Below are positions 46,098-52,492 of a DNA stretch of 64,000 nt, one piece after another; the stretch's first letter is position 1, and every line of letters starts with the position of its first letter. The translations under genes were made by a program, and so were the position numbers. This DNA comes from Bacteroides sp. Marseille-P3684 (GTDB taxonomy: Bacteria; Bacteroidota; Bacteroidia; Bacteroidales; Bacteroidaceae). The stretch lies in the NCBI RefSeq assembly GCF_900291465.1, contig NZ_LT985808.1, positions 976,092 to 1,040,091 of the forward strand, read 5' to 3'. The notes beneath the pieces are model-generated. The model saw only the letters and a list, made by a program, of their open reading frames with translations. It made no database searches and was not told where the DNA came from.

Positions 46098-46448
46098 CGG
46101 AAAATATGTGACTTTCTGTTACAGCCCGGTGTCATTTCCCCGTCCGGATGCTCATCCTACAGTTTGTAAACCTTCCTACTGTATCCTCTCTGTTCGGCTG
46201 ACGGGGCATACGGTACCCGTCCCGTATGTCCGTGTTGCGAAAAGAGTTTACGTGTTTCCTCTTTCCTCCAGTTCTTGGGAAAGAAAGACGGGTGTTTGTT
46301 TCACATTTCTTTATTTTGGCACACTCTAATTCCAATAACTTAAAAATCTAATACTTCACAGTCTGTTTTCTTGAAAAAAAAGTTGTCGGATGCGAATTAT
46401 CAACTTACTTTTGCCACGTAAATCACATTTGCGATAAAAGAGTGTAAT
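46093..46448. other. Gene-free spacer upstream of the switch locus
   Basis: No coding sequence is seen. Composition shifts to AT-rich toward 46448. A small dyad (CATACGG with CCGTATG, about 46207-46227) and the promoter at 46383-46413 are the only recognisable features. Confidence 0.5.
46383..46413 (+). promoter_or_regulatory. Fixed promoter in front of the phase-variable regulator
   Basis: TTG at 46383-46385 and TACTTTTG at 46406-46413 lie 20 bases apart, a good Bacteroidales -33/-7 pair. The expected transcript starts near 46420, about 30 bases before the ATG at 46449. It lies outside the invertible segment, so it would drive whichever end is turned toward it. Confidence 0.6.
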
Positions 46449-46637
46449 ATGGAAGCTACAGTACAAAGACAAGACACGCGGGTGCCTTCCTACCGTGCTC
46501 TGTCTACTCCGGGTAACTCACGGGCTGAGCTGTACAAGAAGATTCTCAAATGTCTGGATGTTCACAAAGTGTATCTGGACCGTGACTTGAATCTGGTGAA
46601 GTTCAGTTCAATAGTGGGTACAGATACTGAACTGTAA
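46449..46637 (+). CDS. N-terminal half of a phase-variable AraC-type regulator (truncated in this orientation)
   Basis: The frame encodes 62 residues beginning MEATVQRQDTRVPSYRALS and ending VKFSSIVGTDTEL before a stop. It contains no complete helix-turn-helix. The last residues, SSIVGT, sit on the left copy of the 17-bp inverted repeat (46612-46628). Joining its first 58 codons to the segment read from the right copy (NTTYLSNTVNEMFGCNLKS onward, 50346-50107) gives an uninterrupted 137-residue AraC-type protein. In the orientation sequenced the gene is therefore cut off after 58 native residues plus DTEL. It has its own promoter outside the invertible DNA. Confidence 0.8.
   Translation: MEATVQRQDTRVPSYRALSTPGNSRAELYKKILKCLDVHKVYLDRDLNLVKFSSIVGTDTEL
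46604..46634. repeat. Left recombination site of the invertible segment
   Basis: The core TAGTGGGTACAGATACT (46612-46628) is the inverted partner of 50341-50357, with one mismatch in 17. The site itself is an imperfect dyad: CAGTTCAATAG (46604-46614) and ATACTGAACTG (46624-46634) pair at 9 of 11 positions around a 9-base centre. This layout resembles a tyrosine-recombinase core site. Confidence 0.7.
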
Positions 46638-46668
46638 AATAACACTTGCGATATTATTGATAAAGTAC

Positions 46669-46700
46669 AAAAGGGCGACCCCGCAAGGAGTCGCCCTTTT
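46669..46700. terminator. Bidirectional intrinsic terminator at the end of the surface lipoprotein gene
   Basis: AAAAGGGCGAC (46669-46679) pairs perfectly with GTCGCCCTTTT (46690-46700) around a 10-base loop, with A/T runs on both sides. It follows the lipoprotein gene on the minus strand and is also placed to stop transcripts running out of the truncated regulator. Confidence 0.85.
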
Positions 46701-46743
46701 CATTTAGGATTGTGTTATAACTCTGTCGTTTAAAGAATACGGA

Positions 46744-49700
46744 TTAGCGTTTCTCTACAGTTACAGGCAGATCGATAACTACATCGTGACCGAAGATGTC
46801 AACGTAAACGATACGGAGTGTAGACTCAACGTTGTCAGTCGGGTTATCATACGGATTATGCTTGGTCGGCTTGAAGCAGAGGTTTCCGCTGTAATCGAAG
46901 TACGGTTCGAAGTATTCGTTCTTCGTCGTTTTGTCATCTACATTCGTGTAGAGGGCAATCGACTTGTACTGACCGTTCATGCGATCGATTGCAGAACCGA
47001 ATTCCTTATCACGTGCAGTGACAAATTCCTTCAGGGTCTTGCCGAAGTCGGTGTCATTGAAGCTGTTTGTGCTTTCTACAACCTCCCATGTCAATCCGCT
47101 AGGATTGAATGCATTATAGGTTTCAGCATAAGTGATTACAGGATTCTTGTCATCTTTACCCGTCACGGATTCAGCCCAATCCCAAGTCATGATTTCTGCA
47201 TCATAGATGCAAGAGAAGATGGTTTCAAATTCTTCGACGGTGATGGTGTGGTTGGATGCAACACACCTGTCTTGAATCTCGTTGAAGGTGTAGCTGATCT
47301 TACCCCAATCAAATTCAACCTTGGTAGCATGCTTAACCGTGTTGTCGATGAACTCACGGGCAACTTCGAATCTGTATCCTGAATAGTTCATGAATCCATT
47401 CGTACCTGTTACTACCAAGTCTTCGGGTTCTTGACCATCACGACGTGCATTTTCGAAGGTTATGATATAGTGCTCAGCACCTTCATCGTTTCTATCCATG
47501 CCGTTGAATACGCGAGTCAGCAAGCCTTCACCGTATTGACCGTACTTAGTCGGTTCAAGGTAGTTGATGTGGATGCCGCCATTGATCTGGTTAGCCTTGA
47601 TACCGAAGCCTTCAGGAGCTGTTTGCGGCAAGCTCTTCTTAGCTTCAACAGGAATAGTAGCCAGGATGCGTCCGTCATCAGCTTTCACGGTGATTGTTCC
47701 AGTGTAGACATGGTCATCAACCAAATAAGCTGCGCCAACTTCGAATTGAGTACGGATGTACTTCACATTCTGCCATCCCTTACCATGCTTCAGGTCGTTC
47801 CACTTCAATTCTTTCTTGTTGGCGTCATAGTAATGAACCTTAAATACATTGCCGCTGATGAGCGTACCATCATTGTCCTTGTAGATCGGTTCAATCATCT
47901 TGGAATCGATGTCATAGCTTGCAATGTTGGCTGCCTCGATGATGGTTTCAGGAATACCGTTCACGAGAACGTAGTCAGAATAGTCATAGTAGTTTGCATC
48001 GTACGGATTGACTACAATATCTGTCTTGACAGCGGGCAGAGCTACAGCAGCCTTGCCTACATGTACGTAGAATGCACGACCATCCGGGTCAACATAAGTA
48101 CCATCGGCATTGACAGCATAAACACGGAAGCCGAGGATTTCATCGTCGTATTCGTAGTCACCGAGGTTGATGCTCAAGGTTGCTTTACCATCACATGCGT
48201 CAATGTCAAGCACTTTGTCAATATCGCCGCTGATACCTTCTTGGAAGGTGTTCCATGCTCTCAACTCAGAAGCGTCGCTTTCACCGGCAAAGTCACGGTC
48301 CAGTGAGATATAGAAGTATTTGGCCTGCTTGGTCTCGTCATCCAGTTCTACAGTAAACTTCGTATCCTGTGCGATAGCAAAGCAGTCTTCATTGCGACGT
48401 GCATCGTAACGGGTTACGGAAGCATTGAAGTCCGGATTTACATACTCCCAAGTCGGCCGAACTTCAATATCGTCCTTCCACTGATATTCATAAGGAGCTT
48501 TGTCTTCTTTGACATCGCCGTCCCAGCGGTTCTGGATTTCATTTACACGCTTCTTGGTGAGGTCTTCATTGTTGGTCTCGTAGACTGAGAAGCCAATGCT
48601 GCCAACTTCACCCTTACGGTCTTCACCGAATGTCAATTCATAAGAAGAAGTTACCTTGCGTACACCACCTGCTGTTGCCGCATTGTCTTTCAAAGCGCCG
48701 TAGTTTTGGTTTACGCCCAAAGCGAACATTACTTGATGGTCATTCATGGTTGTAACTTCCTTGAATGCCTTTTCGAAGTCAAAGCTTTGAGTATCATCAG
48801 CCTTAGAACCTACTTCGATGGTAATTTCGTACAATCCGTTTTCGTTTTGAGCAGCGCGGGTTGTCAGTGTTCCTTGGAATTTCTCTACGGAAACAACTCG
48901 AACATAACCTTCTGAAACCAAGTCGGTGCCTTTCGTGTCAACAAGGCTGATTTCTTCTGCGCTCAATGAAGCGTCTGCAGGAGTTACCCGAACCAACAAC
49001 GTTTCAGACAGTCTGCGTCTTTCACCTTCTACGAAGGATTGAGCATTTTCCATTTCAGCTTTCGGGTTCAGCTCGTTGTGCTTTTCACCCTTTGTACCGA
49101 ATGTATATGTATACTTGGCTACGTCTGAAAGCAATACAAGGTCTGACTCGGCATATTTCTTTCCGGTTTCACCCTTTTGCAGGCCGTAAACCATTTCAAT
49201 GTGAGTGATGCCCTTATAGATAGCCGTATAGAGAACTGCGAGATTTTCATTGACAGTAGCAATGCGGCTGTTCAATGTAGCGATGTCTTGTTGTGCTTGT
49301 TCGATTTCGCCACCCATAGCCTCCAGTTCGGTAGGATCAAGGCCTTTCCACTTGTCAACCTGAGCTGCAAGAGCGCTCAAGTCTGTTTGAATGTCGTCGA
49401 TAGCTGCATTGTTGGTCTGCTTGTAGGTATTCAAAGCTGTTTCCTGAGCAACGATTGCCGTTTCAGCCTTACCAATGCGGTTCAACAGGTCTTCAACCTT
49501 TGCGGAGATACCCTTAACTGTAGTGTTCAACTCTTGGTAAGCCTTGTCCAATTCGGCAAGAGTTTCTTCAGTCTGTCCCTGGAAAGCCAGAAGAGCTTCT
49601 ACATTACCCTGGCAGATGGTCAACGCAGCTTCCACTGCATCGATGTCTTCCTGCAATGCATTGTCACCTTGCTGGATCAGGCTGGTCAATTCTTCCTTGG

Positions 49701-50046
49701 CAGCTGTCAGGCTCTTTGCGGCTTCATCGATGGCAGCTTGTTGTCCTTCCAATGCAGCTTGCTTGGCTTCTGCAGCGGCGATGGCAGCTTCGTCAGCTGA
49801 AGCCTGAGCCTCCTGGACAGCTTTCTCGGCGGCTTCTATATCGCTCTGCAATCCGGTCTGTGCTGACTGTAAGCTGGAGATGGAGCTATTGACTGCCTCC
49901 AGCTGCTGAGTCAGGTCGGCTTTGTTCGCCTCGTCCTGATTGCGGAGCTCATCAATGTCGTCATCGTAATCCTTACATGACGTTACTACTCCTGCTGAGA
50001 GCAAGGCTGCACTGAACAGAAGCGCATTCATAAACTTTTTGTTCAT
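46744..50046 (-). CDS. Large coiled-coil surface lipoprotein (S-layer-like), within the invertible segment
   Basis: The 1100-residue product has a signal peptide with lipobox VVTSC (Cys24), then KDYDDDIDELRNQ. A long alanine- and glutamine-rich coiled coil spans residues about 30-290. It is followed by about 800 residues of probable beta-rich domains without enzyme motifs (LLVRVTPADASLSAEEISL, YEITIEVGSKADD, EILGFRVYAVNADGTYVDPDG, LRIVYVDIFGHDVVIDLPV). The first residues resemble abundant surface-layer-type lipoproteins of Bacteroides relatives. The gene is clearly AT-richer than the xylan locus. It starts 60 bases after the C-terminal half of the AraC-type gene and is read in the same direction. 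In the present orientation I see no promoter-like TAnnTTTG upstream on its strand. The exact role (surface layer, adhesin or phage receptor) is not known. Confidence 0.75.
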   Translation of the reverse strand: MNKKFMNALLFSAALLSAGVVTSCKDYDDDIDELRNQDEANKADLTQQLEAVNSSISSLQSAQTGLQSDIEAAEKAVQEAQASADEAAIAAAEAKQAALEGQQAAIDEAAKSLTAAKEELTSLIQQGDNALQEDIDAVEAALTICQGNVEALLAFQGQTEETLAELDKAYQELNTTVKGISAKVEDLLNRIGKAETAIVAQETALNTYKQTNNAAIDDIQTDLSALAAQVDKWKGLDPTELEAMGGEIEQAQQDIATLNSRIATVNENLAVLYTAIYKGITHIEMVYGLQKGETGKKYAESDLVLLSDVAKYTYTFGTKGEKHNELNPKAEMENAQSFVEGERRRLSETLLVRVTPADASLSAEEISLVDTKGTDLVSEGYVRVVSVEKFQGTLTTRAAQNENGLYEITIEVGSKADDTQSFDFEKAFKEVTTMNDHQVMFALGVNQNYGALKDNAATAGGVRKVTSSYELTFGEDRKGEVGSIGFSVYETNNEDLTKKRVNEIQNRWDGDVKEDKAPYEYQWKDDIEVRPTWEYVNPDFNASVTRYDARRNEDCFAIAQDTKFTVELDDETKQAKYFYISLDRDFAGESDASELRAWNTFQEGISGDIDKVLDIDACDGKATLSINLGDYEYDDEILGFRVYAVNADGTYVDPDGRAFYVHVGKAAVALPAVKTDIVVNPYDANYYDYSDYVLVNGIPETIIEAANIASYDIDSKMIEPIYKDNDGTLISGNVFKVHYYDANKKELKWNDLKHGKGWQNVKYIRTQFEVGAAYLVDDHVYTGTITVKADDGRILATIPVEAKKSLPQTAPEGFGIKANQINGGIHINYLEPTKYGQYGEGLLTRVFNGMDRNDEGAEHYIITFENARRDGQEPEDLVVTGTNGFMNYSGYRFEVAREFIDNTVKHATKVEFDWGKISYTFNEIQDRCVASNHTITVEEFETIFSCIYDAEIMTWDWAESVTGKDDKNPVITYAETYNAFNPSGLTWEVVESTNSFNDTDFGKTLKEFVTARDKEFGSAIDRMNGQYKSIALYTNVDDKTTKNEYFEPYFDYSGNLCFKPTKHNPYDNPTDNVESTLRIVYVDIFGHDVVIDLPVTVEKR

Positions 50047-50106
50047 AATACTAAAACTTTAAATTTAAAGATTAATAAAACTGGTTTTGTTGTTTTCATT
50101 CGGATG

Positions 50107-50355
50107 TCAATCACAGCTTTCCCTGCAAGTGCTCACGTAGTGGTTGGGCGTGATGCCTTCACAACGCTTGAACGAGGCGTAGAAAGTGCTCTTCGAGGCG
50201 AAGCCGCACACGAAGGGAATGTCTTTGAGCCTACAGATGCCCCGGCGCAATACGTCCTTGGCATACTGAACACGGTACCAATTGATTAAGGACTTCAAGT
50301 TGCAGCCGAACATCTCGTTGACCGTGTTCGACAGATAGGTAGTATTTGTACCCAC
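50107..50355 (-). CDS. C-terminal (DNA-binding) half of the phase-variable AraC-type regulator
   Basis: From the right inverted repeat the minus strand encodes VGTNTTYLSNTVNEMFGCNL, then LKDIPFVCGFASKSTFYASFKRCEGITPNHYV. This is the canonical two-helix-turn-helix AraC domain. The only start available is a GTG inside the repeat (50355), without a convincing ribosome-binding site, and it would omit the first part. The missing N-terminus is encoded at 46449 on the other strand. The frame stays open upstream to about 50805, but that extension lacks any ATG and looks non-coding. The piece is therefore a silent half gene in this orientation, not a decayed one. Confidence 0.8.
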   Translation of the reverse strand: MGTNTTYLSNTVNEMFGCNLKSLINWYRVQYAKDVLRRGICRLKDIPFVCGFASKSTFYASFKRCEGITPNHYVSTCRESCD

Positions 50356-50363
50356 TACTACTC
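50335..50363. repeat. Right recombination site of the invertible segment
   Basis: Read on the minus strand the core is TAGTGGGTACAAATACT (50357-50341). It has its own symmetrical arms, GTAGTA and TACTAC, on either side of a GTGGGTACAAA centre. The arms differ from those of the left site except next to the shared core. Confidence 0.65.
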
Positions 50364-50693: not shown

Positions 50694-51205
50694 GGCTTTT
50701 CAGCTGACGCGTACTTTGTCGATTCCGAACAATCTGGCATGGAGATGCTAAGGACTGTGAATAGAAATGGTGAAAAAAGCGCCTGATTTTAGAAAACTAT
50801 ACATTTCATTTTCGGAAAACAGGCAAAACGTGCCCGGAACAATATTGTTTCGCGAGCCAAACAATATTGTTTGAGGCGTCAAACAATATAGTTTCACCTG
50901 CCAAACACTATTGTTTCGTGCTCGGAAGTCAAATCTTTGGAATGTGGAAGTAAAAAGAAGTGAGTTTCCTTTTCCAGAAGGAGTGCCGTGTCAATAAATC
51001 AGAAGGTATTAAAAAGTATGCTTGTCGAGGTGACGGGTGGCTGCATGTTGCGTTTCGTCCGTTGAACCTCTCTCTAGAAAAGCTGTGGAGAGGAAATGGT
51101 GTCAAACTGTATTTTGCGAATCGCCTGAGAATGCCACGAAATTCACCGATTCGTATTTTGGTGCGAGAAAATGCGTTGTGGAAGGCTTCGTTTGACACTT
51201 TGTCA
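50694..51205. repeat. Modular intergenic repeat, copy D (AT-palindrome subtype)
   Basis: It shares CTTTTCAGCTGACGCGTACT-type sequence at the left, the 22-bp palindrome array in the middle, and TTTTGCGAATCGCCTGAGAA with TTCGTTTGACACTTTGTCA at the right with the other copies. It lies directly beside the invertible segment. Confidence 0.65.
50837..50916. repeat. Array of four 14-bp palindromes with 22-bp period
   Basis: Units start at 50837 (GAACAATATTGTTT), 50859 (AAACAATATTGTTT), 50881 (AAACAATATAGTTT) and 50903 (AAACACTATTGTTT), each followed by a variable 8-base spacer. The period matches the 977-1056 array exactly. Confidence 0.85.
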
Positions 51206-51340: not shown

Positions 51341-52492
51341 TTAATTTAAATCATAAAATACCAGCACCGGATTTCCTTCTTCATCCGCCTGATTCAAACA
51401 AGCCTTCAACTCAGGAGAGATAATCTCCTCTTCCATATCAAGCAACGAAAGGCTGCCTACCAGCAAATCCCCATCCGTGCCGACTGGCATTGGAAACAAA
51501 CCGCCCAACCCCAAATCGTCCTGCACGTCAGCGGCTTTCACGTTGGCAACCCGACCCGAAGACTTGTTATAAACCGACAGATACAAGTCTTTTTGAACAT
51601 AATACTTCACGGCTAAGGCAGCCCGGTTTTCATATACATACAGAAAACGGATATAATCGTCCGACAAGATCTCACGCATTACATCTCCCGAATCTTCCGC
51701 TTTTTCAAAGACAGCAGCTTCGGGGAAGGTTCGATCTCCCCACTTCATCTCCAGGCATACCTTCAATGAATCATTCGTCCATTCATAAATCCGGTTCGAA
51801 AAATAGGGGTAAACACGTATCTTTCCTTCATAACCATAAAACGGAGCCGTATGCCCATGCAATATCCTGCCGGAAGCCGGTGCATCATATGCAGTGGACA
51901 ACACATTACCCTCCTTATCTGCCTCTACATATTGCTTTCCGCGGAAAGAATCATTCTGCCGTAAAGGGAAATAATATAGATAATCGCCCTCCGCAGGAAC
52001 GCAGAAAGCTAACGGAGCCTGCCCGGGAAGTTTAATATCTTCTTCATATTCAAAGGTTGTCAGATCATACTTCAACAGTTTCGACATCATACGGTCCATC
52101 ACATACAGTGAGCTGTCGGAGCGGTCAATCCAAAACGAATGCGGACTGAGGAATTCTCCCGGTCCGTTCCCCGTTCCCTCTATCTTATGAATAAACTTTC
52201 CGTCCGTTGCCGAAAATACCAGCACTGCATTGGTTTTATACGTATCAAGCAGATAAATCCTGTCTTTCCATACTTCAAGCTGATCTATAGTTCCAAACAA
52301 CGAGCTATCGGATGTCTCCAAAGGAAGAAAGCGTTCAATCCTTATCAGATCCGAACTTTTGCAAGTTTGCACATTACCGAAATCTACAAGCTCCGCTACC
52401 GGCTGGCTTGCGCCTTTCCGGGAGGTGCAACCGACAAATAGAATCAATAAAGTTGTAATAAATAGAACGAATACTTTATGCATACCTGTCAT
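51341..52492 (-). CDS. 6-bladed beta-propeller lipoprotein (DUF4934-type)
   Basis: This 383-residue lipoprotein has a signal peptide with lipobox LFVGC (Cys22); the ATG at 52483 is an alternative start. Repeated strands such as IDQLEVWKDRIYLLDTYKTNAVLVFSATDGKFIHKI and GNGPGEFLSPHSFWIDRSDSSLYVMDRMMSKLLKYD are typical of the 6-bladed propeller lipoproteins common in Bacteroides genomes. No catalytic residues are recognised and the function is unknown. The gene is AT-richer than the GC-rich genes on both sides, hinting at separate acquisition. It stands alone on the minus strand. Confidence 0.8.
   Translation of the reverse strand: MTGMHKVFVLFITTLLILFVGCTSRKGASQPVAELVDFGNVQTCKSSDLIRIERFLPLETSDSSLFGTIDQLEVWKDRIYLLDTYKTNAVLVFSATDGKFIHKIEGTGNGPGEFLSPHSFWIDRSDSSLYVMDRMMSKLLKYDLTTFEYEEDIKLPGQAPLAFCVPAEGDYLYYFPLRQNDSFRGKQYVEADKEGNVLSTAYDAPASGRILHGHTAPFYGYEGKIRVYPYFSNRIYEWTNDSLKVCLEMKWGDRTFPEAAVFEKAEDSGDVMREILSDDYIRFLYVYENRAALAVKYYVQKDLYLSVYNKSSGRVANVKAADVQDDLGLGGLFPMPVGTDGDLLVGSLSLLDMEEEIISPELKACLNQADEEGNPVLVFYDLN

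Follow-up and report, generated by a model that had tools for sequence, protein, structure and literature searches.

Probable site-specific inversion of a segment holding half of an AraC-type regulator gene and a lipoprotein gene in Bacteroides sp. Marseille-P3684

The window, by which we mean the whole stretch of DNA analysed (64,000 nucleotides of contig NZ_LT985808.1, positions 976,092 to 1,040,091), carries an AraC-type regulator gene in two pieces on opposite strands and, between them, a gene for a surface-type lipoprotein. The N-terminal half (46449..46637, plus strand) is an open reading frame of 62 residues that ends in SSIVGTDTEL with its stop just past the break; it has homologues among the N-halves of relatives and, taken alone, no Pfam match. 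The C-terminal half (50107..50355, minus strand) contains most of an AraC-type helix-turn-helix (HTH_18, PF12833, E 4.6e-15, profile positions 5-77 of 80). The same domain was found in two contiguous regulators of related genomes (L031, 3.7e-12; L033, 4.7e-15), and no Pfam domain beyond it appeared in either. The lipoprotein frame of 1100 residues (46744..50046, minus strand) starts 60 bp past the stop of the C-half. Read by eye, its lipoprotein signal runs ...SAGVVTSC and then KDYDDDID, and the same leader recurs at two sister loci of this genome, L025 and L026. The protein is homologous to lipoproteins of a second genus, with E-values down to 4e-79, and presumably acts at the cell surface. 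The first-pass annotation had described it as a giant coiled-coil surface lipoprotein: the lipoprotein frame stands, while "giant" and "coiled-coil" are loose words for 1100 residues with sub-threshold coiled-coil matches only. Against solved structures the single match was a coiled-coil construct at E 0.33, and matches to NCBIfam SMC-like and PADLOC proteins were likewise read as coiled-coil resemblance rather than as an identification.

Both halves of the regulator have their break at the arms of an inverted repeat, 46612-46628 and 50341-50357, and the cut, the halves and the lipoprotein frame all lie where the first-pass annotation had placed them. In a 22-bp frame, the N-side arm of the recombination site spans 46609..46630 (plus strand) and its inverted copy, the C-side arm, 50339..50360 (minus strand). 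The invertible segment, delimited by these sites and by comparison with joined and split relatives, covers 46612..50357, about 3.7 kb between the arms. The reading that the halves share a frame also holds: in each half the first base of the site is a second codon position, and the joined product would have 137 residues, 58 from before the break and 79 from after it. Outside the segment lies a fixed promoter of the Bacteroidota type (46383..46413, plus strand), whose boxes, TTG at 46383 and TACTTTTG at 46406-46413, are present as first described. Further upstream lies an element TTCCNANNNYTTAAAAA (46330..46346, plus strand), a candidate activator site at which the regulator may bind to activate itself. 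Within the segment, a hairpin with a 14-pair stem and a T-rich tail (46669..46700, minus strand) sits at the end of the lipoprotein gene and, in the sequenced orientation, also just past the truncated N-half. It is the longest stem in a scan that gave 6 sites against 5.0 expected, and it may act as a terminator for either.

The repeat itself is modest. It pairs at 16 of 17 positions, and its 22-bp arms are identical at 17 of 22 with one mismatch adjoining the core. Its length is unremarkable, as 41 inverted pairs of at least 14 nt occur in 10 kb, and the whole window contains four pairs whose arms match at 16/17 or better and stand 0.5-8 kb apart. Being one of four comparable pairs, the inverted repeat was rejected as evidence by itself; what lifts it above chance is that it coincides with a gene break and that relatives keep both. 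An accidental inversion by general recombination, with the short repeat a coincidence, would draw on the fact that repeats this long arise by chance in the window. It leaves unexplained why the same site and the same break recur at seven loci in five genomes, with joined forms and an associated recombinase besides, and we regard it as extremely improbable.

These seven split loci, each holding both halves, are the window locus, L025 (near C1:1142000) and L026 (near C1:539700) of the same genome, which a search with the C-half uncovered together with relatives in the genus, and L027 (G003), L028 (G008), L029 (G010) and L030 (G001). Their segments span 2.9 to 6.1 kb. L023 is the G010 locus again, the same as L029. 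A first contig scan had yielded two loci, one of which, L024, from Paenibacillus and 38% identical, was set aside because its setting is unrelated. In a further genome, G004 (L032), a C-half and lipoprotein follow a recombinase gene and the contig stops before any N-half. The break falls at the same site in every split locus, with identical codon phase in all seven; the site consensus is CAATAGTSGGYACRAATACTAC, and it doubles as coding sequence for the residues IVGTNTTY of the AraC-type helix-turn-helix. Depending on the locus, the longest uninterrupted match between the two arms is 11 to 22 bases long. The core reads GGGTACA in the window, GGGTACG in L026, GGGCACG in L025, L027 and L028, and CGGCACG in L029 and L030. 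Cores thus vary between loci, yet the arms of each locus agree, which is what strand exchange would demand; both window arms, for instance, carry the locus-specific run TAGTGGGTACA. A further site-like match with three mismatches lies in the same genome at C1:2147685-2147705, away from the three loci.

Both orientations exist among the relatives. Contiguous regulators occur in G009 (L031) and G012 (L033), followed by a second, inverted site at a distance of 5.5 kb in the former and 7.3 kb in the latter. The recombinase and ruvB neighbours, as seen by Pfam, are common to the joined locus of G009 and the split loci of G001, G003, G008 and G010; between G009 and G001 identity is 97% for the ruvB proteins and 74% for the recombinases, and the N-side flanks are without match. 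The segments of these two genomes also differ within: an OmpA-family gene (L030:2246-3337, L031:2475-3572) runs opposite to the lipoprotein gene in G001 and in the same direction in G009, which indicates a further rearrangement inside the segment. A third genome, the metagenome assembly G002, contains both junction types. On contig C189 the N-half runs into the C-half, on contig C91 the recombinase gene leads into the same C-half, and the stretch shared by the two, the only element places found in this genome, is exactly 141 bases of C-half and site. At 141, the shared length equals the top default word size of a widely used metagenome assembler, and the pair resembles an assembly-graph fork at which both junctions were present. 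Four genes of C189 have counterparts on the N side of the G012 locus (82-94%). Since only one of the nine predicted genes of C91, the recombinase (68%), matches the recombinase side of that locus, G002 also fits a mixture of two strains with one fixed orientation apiece, or a pair of loci whose segments are identical. Contig C8 of G007 (L036) likewise ends exactly 141 bases past the site core, a suggestive hint of a second population with both orientations. A single orientation in all relatives, which the first-pass annotation had named as speaking against a switch, is therefore not what is seen, and the contiguous regulator it had proposed to look for is present in G009 and G012.

The enzyme associated with these loci is a tyrosine recombinase. 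Its representative in the window genome, 364 residues long and encoded next to the third split regulator (L026:5475-6566), has Phage_integrase catalytic, SAM-like and arm-binding domains (PF00589 2.1e-19, PF13102 3.9e-16 and PF17293 4.3e-6). Ten of fifteen genomes of the genus carry the element, as defined by a C-half profile match at E < 1e-20. A recombinase homologue at E <= 1e-100 lies beside an element in all ten and is absent from the five non-carriers, genomes 65-91% complete whose best recombinase match is 5.9e-34. The L026-type enzyme is the candidate for the cognate recombinase. The family thus has its recombinase beside most copies and lacks it beside the window copy: no tyrosine recombinase was found near the window locus or L025, and these two would depend on the L026 enzyme acting in trans. 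Two other candidates were discarded. An integrase-like gene about 5.5 kb past the window end (C1:1045574; L062:5597-6805), with a partial PF00589 match at 4.3e-7, falls outside the recombinase family and lies about 18 kb from the site; for serine recombinases, the sole PF00239 match in the genome is a frame of 754 residues about 190 kb away.

Several of these observations could mean that the family flips elsewhere while the window copy is a stranded duplicate in a fixed rearrangement. No recombinase adjoins this copy, its imperfect arms differ next to the core, and it is split in the one available genome of its species, where all three loci are in the split state. The shared run in both window arms points the other way, as do a recombinase of the right family in the same genome and the intact promoter and upstream element, which keep the spacing of the family. 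The separated C-half itself argues further against decay: compared with L025 over 73 codons it shows dN 0.03 at dS 1.08, and is therefore still constrained as a protein. The N-half shows no constraint against L028 over 32 codons (dS 0.68, dN 0.65), and many other half pairs are saturated at synonymous sites. We consider such a stranded copy improbable, and the window copy would be one that can still flip.

Promoter and upstream element are conserved in arrangement. In all ten genus N-halves examined, the distance from TTAAA to the -7 box TANNTTYG behind it is exactly 66 bp, and TTG is spaced 23 from that box. Of 41 occurrences of TANNTTYG in the window, one has TTAAA at the 66-bp distance. The combination GTTGTCGGATG-N-TANNTTTG occurs twice in the genome, at the window locus and at L026. 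The longer TTCCNANNNYTTAAAAA occurs in four places of the 3.7-Mb genome, three of them upstream of the three split regulators, and a reversed-pattern control gave none; its exact form is not matched by every relative. At the fourth copy (C1:259149) neither a gene shortly downstream nor a promoter at the family spacing was seen, and this copy was taken as chance. Outside the genus, three of 13 contiguous homologues have the TTAAA and TANNTTYG pair, at 65 bp (G272 and L053) or 66 bp (L059), and the others are without it. Autoactivation is the most likely role of the regulator: it would act on its own promoter through the element 66 bp above the -7 box, so that the active state would reinforce itself.

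On the other side of the segment no comparable signal was found. All seven split loci lack a TTG-N(17-23)-TANNTTTG promoter facing the C-half within 1 kb outside the site, and all seven lack TANNTTTG between the site and the lipoprotein start. The first-pass view that the surface gene has no complete expression unit when split is borne out to this extent, that no promoter of the searched two-box form faces it. These absences weigh against an exchange of promoters in which the lipoprotein would be made in either orientation, the joined state using the fixed promoter and the split state outer read-through, with mainly the regulator being switched. Such an arrangement finds some footing at L026, where the recombinase gene reads toward the C-half and stops 83 bp short of the site, so that read-through could express the lipoprotein in the split state, and in the lone TANNTTTG that faces the C-half at two of the seven loci (L025 and L029). 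The window locus and L025 have no recombinase gene at that position, and we hold the exchange to be unlikely. Repeats that would invert the promoter itself, as at BT1927-type loci, were not found either at the three of ten genus N-halves tested (window, L025 and L026): no inverted pair of at least 14 nt lies within 1 kb upstream of the N-half at the window locus and L025, and the one 15-nt pair at L026 lies far upstream.

We therefore favour, with high though not full confidence, a site-specific inversion switch in which a recombinase joins or splits the regulator that heads the lipoprotein operon; as a family, and as a mechanism, this switch is very probably real. The tyrosine recombinase would exchange strands within a putative core GGYACR. 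In the joined state, the fixed promoter would drive an operon of the small AraC-type regulator, the lipoprotein and the closing hairpin, and the operon would be ON. In the split state, as sequenced, the promoter would yield a 62-residue stump running into the hairpin, and the C-half and lipoprotein gene, with no recognisable promoter, would be OFF. The first-pass term, a regulator-coding-sequence switch, is right that the break lies in the regulator gene and too narrow in confining the switch to its coding sequence, as the lipoprotein gene and terminator flip too. It is a whole-operon switch with its break inside the first gene, wider than first proposed.

Beyond the genus, the C-half profile at E <= 1e-22 matched at least 25 of 399 family genomes sampled, with at most 12 candidates per genome scored; the contig-end fragments of G002 and G007 fall below this cut. 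Complete regulator-lipoprotein operons in multiple copies occur in genus g13, probably Bacteroides. In eight of the eleven g13 operons examined, inverted repeats of 23-28 nt, of the type ATCTCTTA..TAAGAGAT, lie about 170-200 bp apart just upstream, as expected for classic invertible promoters (L048, L049, L050, L051, L055 and L056). L054, in genus g3, and L053 have the same gene order of regulator, lipoprotein and ruvB, and the stretch examined contains no recombinase, so that the joined order is probably ancestral. A scan of viral contigs found no relatives. The most elaborate locus is that of G272 (L046, L047; C1:83000-115000), where about 24 kb hold four lipoprotein genes, one with a complete regulator and three with a C-half alone; a homologous recombinase (L047, PF00589 4.5e-19) and a ruvB-like gene come next. 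The C-half copies start at the site, and even in the copy that diverges most (63%) at least 30 bases from the core onward are unchanged, up to where the compared stretch ends. From its sequence, the locus looks like a multi-cassette shufflon that would swap regulator half and lipoprotein together. With two sites, the window locus itself is not a shufflon, which takes more than two sites with alternative cassettes.

A broader picture would follow, to which we give about even credence. A linked tyrosine recombinase would assemble or break an auto-activating regulator within its DNA-binding domain, coupled to a lipoprotein on the same segment; one recombinase would serve satellite loci in trans; and a shufflon expansion in a related genus would swap the DNA-recognition half together with the lipoprotein.

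In phage Mu (G segment) and in the R64 shufflon, a constant N-terminal part is joined to an invertible C-terminal part, changing tail or pilus specificity. The present loci share this design, and the G272 locus resembles those systems most; here, unlike there, a DNA-binding regulator is assembled or broken. Gene-altering programmed inversions and intragenic invertons have reportedly been described by Milman in 2023 and Chanin in 2024. Inversion there likewise changes coding sequence, whereas here, as far as the available parts of that literature go, it is a regulator that is altered and joined to a co-travelling surface gene, with a linked recombinase family. In the portion of one such survey available, the genes with intragenic invertible regions range from regulatory genes to genes for surface molecules (PMC10939037). 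Closest in product is BT1927 of Bacteroides thetaiotaomicron, an S-layer lipoprotein under an invertible promoter that, according to the text available, roughly one cell in 1,000 expresses in rich medium, and lipoproteins of this kind are reported there to protect from phage and complement (PMC12548429). In both systems DNA inversion controls a large surface lipoprotein, and the homologous operons of g13 have repeats around their upstream region. At BT1927-type loci the promoter inverts, whereas here the promoter is fixed and the segment comprises half a regulator gene and the lipoprotein gene. The window operon is presumably kin to BT1927, and the word AraC does not occur in the main text of PMC12548429. 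The SusC/RagA-type shufflons of Bacteroides fragilis, in the part of PMC5729914 available, also place alternative outer-membrane genes behind a promoter by large inversions whose repeats overlap coding sequence; those repeats overlap the starts of receptor genes, whereas here the break lies inside the regulator heading the operon. Our literature search, which covered the accessible parts of several surveys of DNA inversion (PMC5903667, PMC11892184, PMC10939037), found no regulator gene split by inversion at such loci, though the regions of PMC10939037 include regulatory genes. Recombinase-driven phase variation is itself known; what appears to be new here is that inversion would assemble the regulator heading a surface-lipoprotein operon.

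The switching of BT1927-kind lipoproteins has been studied through invertible promoters, and what looks like the same kind of operon is switched here by cutting the regulator gene. Screens restricted to invertible promoters would overlook such a locus, and gene calling would list a short fragment and an orphan domain. Homologous operons controlled by promoter flip on the one hand and by gene split on the other make a natural pair for studying the contribution of a switched regulator, be it bistability, a link between loci or control specific to each cassette.

The flank beyond the C-side arm holds two further features. The palindrome AAACAATATTGTTT is repeated in tandem at 22-bp spacing in the window (50829-50924) and also occurs near L025 1176 and L026 11203; the array was dropped as a part of the switch, as the palindrome is found in 37 places genome-wide. 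A 6-bladed beta-propeller gene (51341-52492, minus strand; DUF5128, E 2.3e-92) points at the element, from which it is separated by about 1 kb that has no clear gene.
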